Below the pieces are notes generated by a model. It worked only from the letters and a program-made list of their open reading frames with translations, was not told where the DNA came from and did no database searches. Positions 17,851-27,901 of a stretch of 42,643 nucleotides of DNA are shown here, in pieces (position 1 is the stretch's first letter; each line of letters starts with the position of its first letter). The position numbers and the translations under genes are program-made. The stretch comes from Candidatus Woesearchaeota archaeon (lineage in GTDB: Archaea > Nanobdellota > Nanobdellia > Woesearchaeales > GW2011-AR4). Location: positions 1 to 42,643 of the forward strand of contig JACOUX010000049.1 of the NCBI GenBank assembly GCA_016177615.1, written 5' to 3'.

Positions 17851-17896
17851 GTACAAGAAATGGTTTTAATAATTTATTTTTAACCAGAAATTATAA

Positions 17897-17997
17897 TAGC
17901 CCCGGGCAGATTCGAACTGCCGTCTCAGCCTCCAAAGGGCTGAATGATTGACCGCTACATTCCGCAGAATTACTTTAAATAATTCTTCCACGGGGCT
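17897..17997 (-). tRNA. tRNA-Gln (UUG) with an intron near the D arm
   Basis: On the minus strand the acceptor AGCCCCG/CGGGGCT, T arm GGCAG-TTCGAAT-CTGCC and anticodon arm CAGCC-CTTTGGA-GGCTG (anticodon TTG) form a normal tRNA-Gln. Between AGCCCCGTG and ATGTAGCGGTCAATC there are about 28 extra bases (roughly 17961-17988). These fold into AGAATTA-TTTAAAG-TAATTCT. Removing them gives a 73-base tRNA with the usual archaeal Gln D arm. This is a non-canonical intron position; most archaeal tRNA introns lie at 37/38. The 3' CCA is not encoded. Confidence 0.85.
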
Positions 17998-27653: not shown

Positions 27654-27822
27654 TGGGGACGCGAGGATTTGAACCCCGATTTCGGCTCTTTGCAATTCCT
27701 TACAAAAATCAGCCGGTATCGCCAAATTAATTTCATCGTCTTGCGACTCATCGCTCCAAACTGGAGCCGGCGATAATAGCCAGGATGTACGGACTATTGA
27801 AAATCCTTTATACGACGTCCCC
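27654..27822 (-). tRNA. tRNA-Trp (CCA) with three introns
   Basis: The ends are a clear tRNA: acceptor GGGGACG/CGTCCCC with discriminator A, and T arm CGGGG-TTCAAAT-CCTCG. At 169 bases it is 96 too long. Removing 25 bases from the D loop (about 27780-27804), 43 from the anticodon loop after CTCCAG (27718-27760) and about 28 from the variable region (27681-27708) leaves 73 bases. The result has D arm GTAT-AAAGG-CTATTAT, anticodon arm GCCGG-CTCCAGA-CCGGC and a five-base variable loop, which matches archaeal tRNA-Trp. Each insertion has its own pairing: AGGAT/ATCCT, GTC-GCAA-GAC, and TTTTTGTAA-GGAA-TTGCAAAGA. A TATA-like ATATTTAAATAAC lies upstream at 27851-27863. Exact splice sites are inferred. 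Confidence 0.75.
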
Positions 27823-27901
27823 AAAAAACATCGTGAAGAAATCTGCCTGTTATTTAAATATTTCCAATAAAAATTTAAACAAGCCCGCGGTTTCATATTT
27901 T

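Follow-up and report, generated by a model that had tools for sequence, protein, structure and literature searches.

The window analysed here is the whole 42,643-nt stretch of contig JACOUX010000049.1, part of a Woesearchaeota genome bin (G000). On its minus strand, positions 27822..27654 hold a 169-nt tRNA-Trp(CCA) precursor that consists of four exons and three introns. Exon 1 (27808..27822) covers tRNA positions 1-15, with the 5' strand of the acceptor stem, U8, C9, the D stem and A14 A15, and is followed by a 23-nt D-loop intron at site 15/16 (27785..27807; AGGATTTTCAATAGTCCGTACAT). Exon 2 (27761..27784) covers positions 16-37, with the anticodon CCA at 27764..27762, and ends at a 43-nt anticodon-loop intron at the canonical site 37/38 (27718..27760; TTTGGAG...GGCGAT). 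Exon 3 (27710..27717) covers positions 38-45 (A38, CCGGC, TG). A 29-nt variable-region intron at site 45/46 (27681..27709; ATTTTTGTAAGGAATTGCAAAGAGCCGAA) separates it from exon 4 (27654..27680), which contains the remaining variable loop, the T arm, the 3' strand of the acceptor stem and the discriminator A73. The acceptor stem is perfect (GGGGACG/CGTCCCC, followed by the discriminator A), the T arm is intact, and removal of the 95 extra bases leaves a standard cloverleaf of 74 nt including the discriminator (GGGGACGTCGTATAACCTGGCTATTATCGCCGGCTCCAGACCGGCTGATCGGGGTTCAAATCCTCGCGTCCCCA). A TATA-box-like TTTAAATA was seen by eye upstream of the gene (27851..27858, minus strand), as it was upstream of many of the genes in related genomes.

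The intron boundaries follow one rule, namely a 4-bp H helix formed by the last exon bases before the bulge and the 3' end of the intron, with cuts at NN|N in both bulges. In the D-loop intron, the H helix pairs GTAT (exon) with GTAC (intron), the bulges are AA|A and AT|C, and the hairpin is GGATT/AGTCC. The variable-region intron has the H helix CGGC (exon)/GCCG (intron), the bulges TG|A and AA|A, and a 9-bp hairpin with a GGAA loop. All four H-helix pairs form in both of these introns, and neither has an outer helix. The anticodon-loop intron forms a complete BHB, with the anticodon stem as outer helix and three of four pairs in the H helix. When the precursor was folded without constraints, the D and variable-region half-motifs were recovered, and the stability of the fold was above that of dinucleotide shuffles (z = -3.5).

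A first-pass annotation had placed a tRNA-Trp gene with three separate introns and a perfect acceptor and T arm at 27654-27822. The coordinates, both arms and the length of the anticodon-loop intron stand, and the three-intron structure is borne out by the comparative evidence below (parses of related loci, covariation and the lack of an intronless copy). Because of the BHB bulge rule and of relatives that lack single introns, its remaining figures are revised here: the D-loop and variable-region introns measure 23 and 29 nt instead of 25 and 28, the extra bases add up to 95 instead of 96, and the spliced product has 74 bases instead of 73.

ARAGORN and Rfam (at the gathering threshold) both missed the tRNA-Trp gene and listed a tRNA-Gln as the sole tRNA of the window, and ARAGORN found no tRNA in the syntenic loci of relatives. 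The multi-intron structure accounts for the failure of standard tools to find these tRNAs in DPANN genomes, and estimates of completeness and claims of missing tRNAs are therefore affected. The tRNA-Gln(TTG) gene of the window (17897-17997, minus strand) itself has an apparent D-arm intron of ~28 nt (AAGAATTATTTAAAGTAATTCTGCGGAA; H helix CCGT/GCGG), and the 5' part of its ARAGORN call (17896-17972) is wrong. In the whole bin, only 15 RF00005 matches pass the cut-off, many fewer than a normal set of tRNAs would give.

To compare the gene with its relatives, we searched 147 whole genomes of the same order, which yielded 47 tRNA-Trp loci. A parser with a single rule and four fixed sites (15/16, 37/38, 45/46 and 59/60) recovered a tRNA-Trp of 73-75 nt from 41 of these, and gave one parse for the window gene. 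In 1.1 Mb of real sequence, read on both strands, every parse fell inside loci that had been fetched for tRNA-Trp or for its neighbouring gene, and 5.5 Mb of shuffled sequence gave zero parses. When the window introns were shuffled 200,000 times each, the observed helices were matched by 83 shuffles of the D-loop intron and by none of the variable-region intron. This rarity, together with the lack of parses in shuffled sequence, excludes a chance origin of the motifs. Six loci gave no parse (L060, L027, L028, L043, L045 and L051); L060 runs off the end of its contig, and in L027 and L028 the inserts seem to lie elsewhere in the T arm. In relatives, no tRNA was detected by a synteny search that reached 1 kb from the neighbouring ORF; the gene there lies ~1.5-1.7 kb away. 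Pattern searches for T arms and T-loop introns gave many chance matches relative to reversed controls, and genome-wide counts from them were excluded.

The parsed genes contain 41 anticodon-loop, 22 D-loop, 9 variable-region and 11 T-loop introns. Three of three outer-helix pairs form in 41/41 anticodon-loop and 11/11 T-loop introns, which holds by construction as the parser requires these stems. Only 0-1 of three pairs form in 22/22 D-loop and 9/9 variable-region introns. As the outer helix is missing, these latter introns represent relaxed HBh' motifs. Their helices covary among relatives. In the D-loop intron, the H-helix pair at position 13 is U-G, U-A or C-G, and the first pairs of the hairpin switch from GG/CC to CC/GG in a compensatory manner; in the variable-region intron, the H helix occurs as CGGC/GCCG, CGGT/GCCG and CAGC/GCTG. 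The spliced window product is identical at 74 of 74 positions to that of relative G009 (L017), whose gene precisely lacks the D-loop intron, and in G025 and G027 the variable-region intron is absent and the variable loop reads TGAT, the same as in the spliced form of the window gene.

These observations bear on whether the D-loop and variable-region segments are removed at all. If the anticodon-loop intron alone were spliced, both hairpins would be retained in an enlarged mature tRNA, and a retained D hairpin would part A14/A15 from G18G19. The hairpins are stable, and their motifs are missing the outer helix on which cleavage by alpha4 enzymes is said to depend (PMC4033280), both of which would fit retention. 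However, both segments follow the BHB bulge rule and covary, and their removal yields the exact sequence of relatives that do not carry them, so that we consider retention improbable.

The bin contains a second tRNA-Trp locus (G000:C14:788-976; L046/L066), which has four introns. Contig C14 is 7.2 kb long and repeats the neighbour order of the window (a DUF192-like protein, a large surface protein and a pilin-like protein) at 41-57% protein identity, and its pilin is 87% identical to that of another member of the genus. C14 is probably a contaminant from another species of the genus; the bin, which comprises 67 contigs, is rated 99% complete with 3.6% contamination. To judge C14, the bin was also searched for another copy of the neighbouring ORF, and none was found. 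Such a second tRNA-Trp-like locus is what would be expected if the window gene were a decayed pseudogene and tRNA-Trp were supplied by another gene, and an intact second copy had been named at the outset as grounds for that view. The only other copy carries four introns on a contig that probably belongs to another species, and no intronless tRNA-Trp was found in the bin, whether or not C14 is counted as a contaminant. As the spliced stems of the window gene are also intact and its product matches that of G009, decay is very unlikely. There is next to no chance that the segments are group I or II introns, mobile insertions or an assembly error, as 23-43 nt is far too short for such introns, Rfam gave no intron match, and the same sites recur across many independent assemblies. 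A permuted or split tRNA was rejected, since all parts lie in order within one locus.

In three relatives, D-loop, anticodon-loop, variable-region and T-loop (59/60) introns occur together in one tRNA-Trp gene, which is thus divided into five pieces (G005, JAGVXS010000038.1; G010, JACOZN010000010.1; G015, JAHFQA010000007.1; identical genes were located in the named loci). Removal of the four introns again leaves a standard cloverleaf. Both the 37/38 and the 59/60 intron interrupt a 7-nt loop between its sixth and seventh positions, and the stem of that loop (anticodon or T stem) serves as outer helix; structurally, site 59/60 corresponds to 37/38. Among relatives, the T-loop intron has TTCG/CGAA or TTCA/TGAA as its H helix. 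Beyond tRNA-Trp, at least six tRNA genes of the bin likewise have T-loop introns of 16-28 nt (C7:18909-19002, C12:541-651, C27:17313-17425, C45:6085-6186, C57:1130-1241 and C57:1755-1864; loci L068, L069, L082, L085 and L078). Because the T-loop sequence is universal, an identical H-helix site is available in each tRNA, and this may account for the spread of these introns.

The anticodon-loop intron of the window has features of a guide RNA. On the minus strand, the element TGGAG (27754..27758) is complementary to C32-A36 and precedes a putative box D' (ATGA, 27748..27751), so that the fifth base upstream of the box faces C34; a putative box C' (CGATGA) follows at 27733..27738. The 43-nt intron does not hold the full set of boxes C, D', C' and D, and D' and C' alone are recognisable by eye. 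Of the 41 anticodon-loop introns, 36 conserve the block TGGA-NNN-NTGA, a count that rests on the D' block only, as the automatic assignment of C' was misregistered in some introns. Judged by these sequence features, the intron probably still carries one half of a box C/D guide (D'/C') that would direct 2'-O-methylation to C34. In Haloferax and other Euryarchaeota, the pre-tRNA-Trp intron contains a nested box C/D guide for C34 and U39, as far as the work is cited in PMC4090602 (Clouet d'Orval 2001, Singh 2004). Like the window intron, it lies at 37/38, and in its guide stretch C34 is faced by the fifth base upstream of D'. The window intron differs in having D'/C' only and in its length of 43 nt, versus a median of 65 nt in PMC4090602. 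Position 39 of the window tRNA-Trp is C, and the U39 target is therefore absent, unlike in the Haloferax/euryarchaeal case.

Next, we consider the enzymes that would process this precursor. The bin has one EndA gene (L001:1474-2079, minus strand), which encodes 201 aa with PF02778 and PF01974 and the catalytic Y/H/K residues; searches of the bin with both families did not find a second endonuclease subunit. The same layout, as expected of an alpha4-type EndA (one gene of ~180-200 aa with N- and C-terminal domains and the Y/H/K triad), is seen across the relatives, and PF01974 is over the cut-off in 131 of 147 of them, nearly always in a single gene. Among solved structures, the best sequence matches of EndA are chain 3iey_A of the Nanoarchaeum equitans endonuclease and 1a79, the alpha4 enzyme of M. 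jannaschii. In 2cv8, one loop bears the residues KPK, and we read this stretch as the CSL from the description in PMC12397907; EndA has a 10-residue gap opposite it, and no relative has an insertion at this position in the family alignment. EndA does not carry the insert with a lysine that, in enzymes with a CSL or ASL, lies between the YG motif and the LSL helix. The subunit type, which the first-pass annotation had proposed to identify, thus looks like a single-gene, alpha4-like enzyme without CSL/ASL, judging from its sequence. Loops of the CSL/ASL type have been tied to broad specificity (PMC12397907). The inference that a triple-intron gene implies a relaxed endonuclease holds in that the D-loop and variable-region motifs have no outer helix, but the only enzyme found is of a class reported to cut canonical BHB motifs only (PMC4033280). 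No match to rtcB, which encodes the ligase, was found in the 67 contigs of the bin. As RtcB is present in 134 of the 147 genomes searched, a gap in the bin is the likeliest reason.

The rtcB genes of six relatives contain inserts of 30-33 nt, mostly with in-frame stops (G001, L150; G003, L147; G009, L148; G006, L149; G016, L152; G101, L153). These inserts interrupt the conserved MPDGHWGYGFPIGG motif (GHWGYGFPIGG) at two points close together. Once the NN|N rule of the tRNA introns is used to excise them (for example, GGGG AT|T...CCCT TG|A), the frame is restored and the motif reads as in the intronless genes of G005 and G013. The H helix has four of four pairs at one point (G001, G003, G009 and G101) and three of four at the other (G006 and G016). 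Inspection by eye showed additional inserts at SPGGI|GFD (G001 and G006) and GFDI|NCG (G016 and G101). The restored frame is an independent hint, drawn from sequence comparison, that relaxed BHB motifs may be spliced in this clade. We found no report of BHB introns in rtcB in the open-licence literature. In Crenarchaeota, cbf5 mRNAs carry introns (PMC2738675), which is similar in that a BHB intron interrupts a protein-coding gene; there the interrupted gene is cbf5, whereas in these relatives it is rtcB, whose product completes splicing.

We regard it as very likely that the window holds a functional Woesearchaeota (DPANN) tRNA-Trp(CCA) gene with three BHB-type introns that are spliced by EndA and RtcB. 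This is supported by the 41 parses, the identity with the G009 product, the compensatory changes, the lack of an intronless copy, the EndA gene, the presence of RtcB in relatives and the frame repair in rtcB. Against it stand the failure to find rtcB in the bin, the canonical-only specificity described for the alpha4 class (PMC4033280) set against introns without an outer helix, and the 3/4 pairing of the anticodon-loop H helix. At each intron, EndA would cut the 3-nt bulges behind their second base, and RtcB would join the exons into a normal 74-nt tRNA-Trp. The 37/38 intron would be the old archaeal tRNA-Trp intron, probably still with its half guide for C34. The D-loop and variable-region introns would be lineage-specific additions on relaxed motifs, and the T-loop intron a fourth intron in close relatives. 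We lean slightly towards a broader proposal, in which the alpha4-like EndA of Woesearchaeota, without a CSL, would cut relaxed BHB motifs genome-wide, both in tRNA genes that hold as many as four introns and in the rtcB mRNA of several species. If this is true, RtcB ligase would be needed for its own mRNA, which makes splicing capacity dependent on its own product. It would also break the proposed rule that relaxed cleavage requires a CSL/ASL loop or a beta subunit.

Triple-intron tRNA genes had been described at the outset as known mainly from Thermoproteales, which agrees with PMC8450103 and PMC4033280. However, PMC11291895 also reports many multi-intron tRNA genes in the Asgard Atabeyarchaeia and Freyarchaeia. 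The thermoproteal examples include tRNA-Glu(UUC) of Pyrobaculum calidifontis and tRNA-Pro(UGG) of P. islandicum (PMC4390854), and like the window gene they are single genes with several short BHB introns, some at canonical and others at non-canonical sites. They differ in that the window lineage belongs to Woesearchaeota, seems to have a single alpha4-like EndA without CSL, and has relatives that reach four introns per gene. The Atabeyarchaeia and Freyarchaeia of PMC11291895 resemble the window lineage in their many introns at non-canonical sites outside Thermoproteales, but belong to another phylum. By itself, the window gene is an already known kind of gene in a new lineage, whereas the combination of four introns with an alpha4-like enzyme extends this kind by a new variant. 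The published maximum per archaeal tRNA gene is three introns ('up to three' in PMC8450103, 'maximum of three' in PMC4033280, and PMC4390854). Four introns in one gene exceeds this maximum as found in the open-licence literature, and we do not claim a first. Published surveys tie three-intron tRNA genes to endonucleases with special loops. A lineage with four introns and a plain-looking endonuclease thus offers a direct test of what makes splicing permissive.

The tRNA-Trp gene of G008 (L058) has an unusually long anticodon-loop intron of 186 nt, and that of G044 (L042) an unusually long T-loop intron of 100 nt. The rtcB genes of G019, G025, G060, G112, G119, G136 and G144 have open frames of ~980-1020 aa, which suggest inteins.
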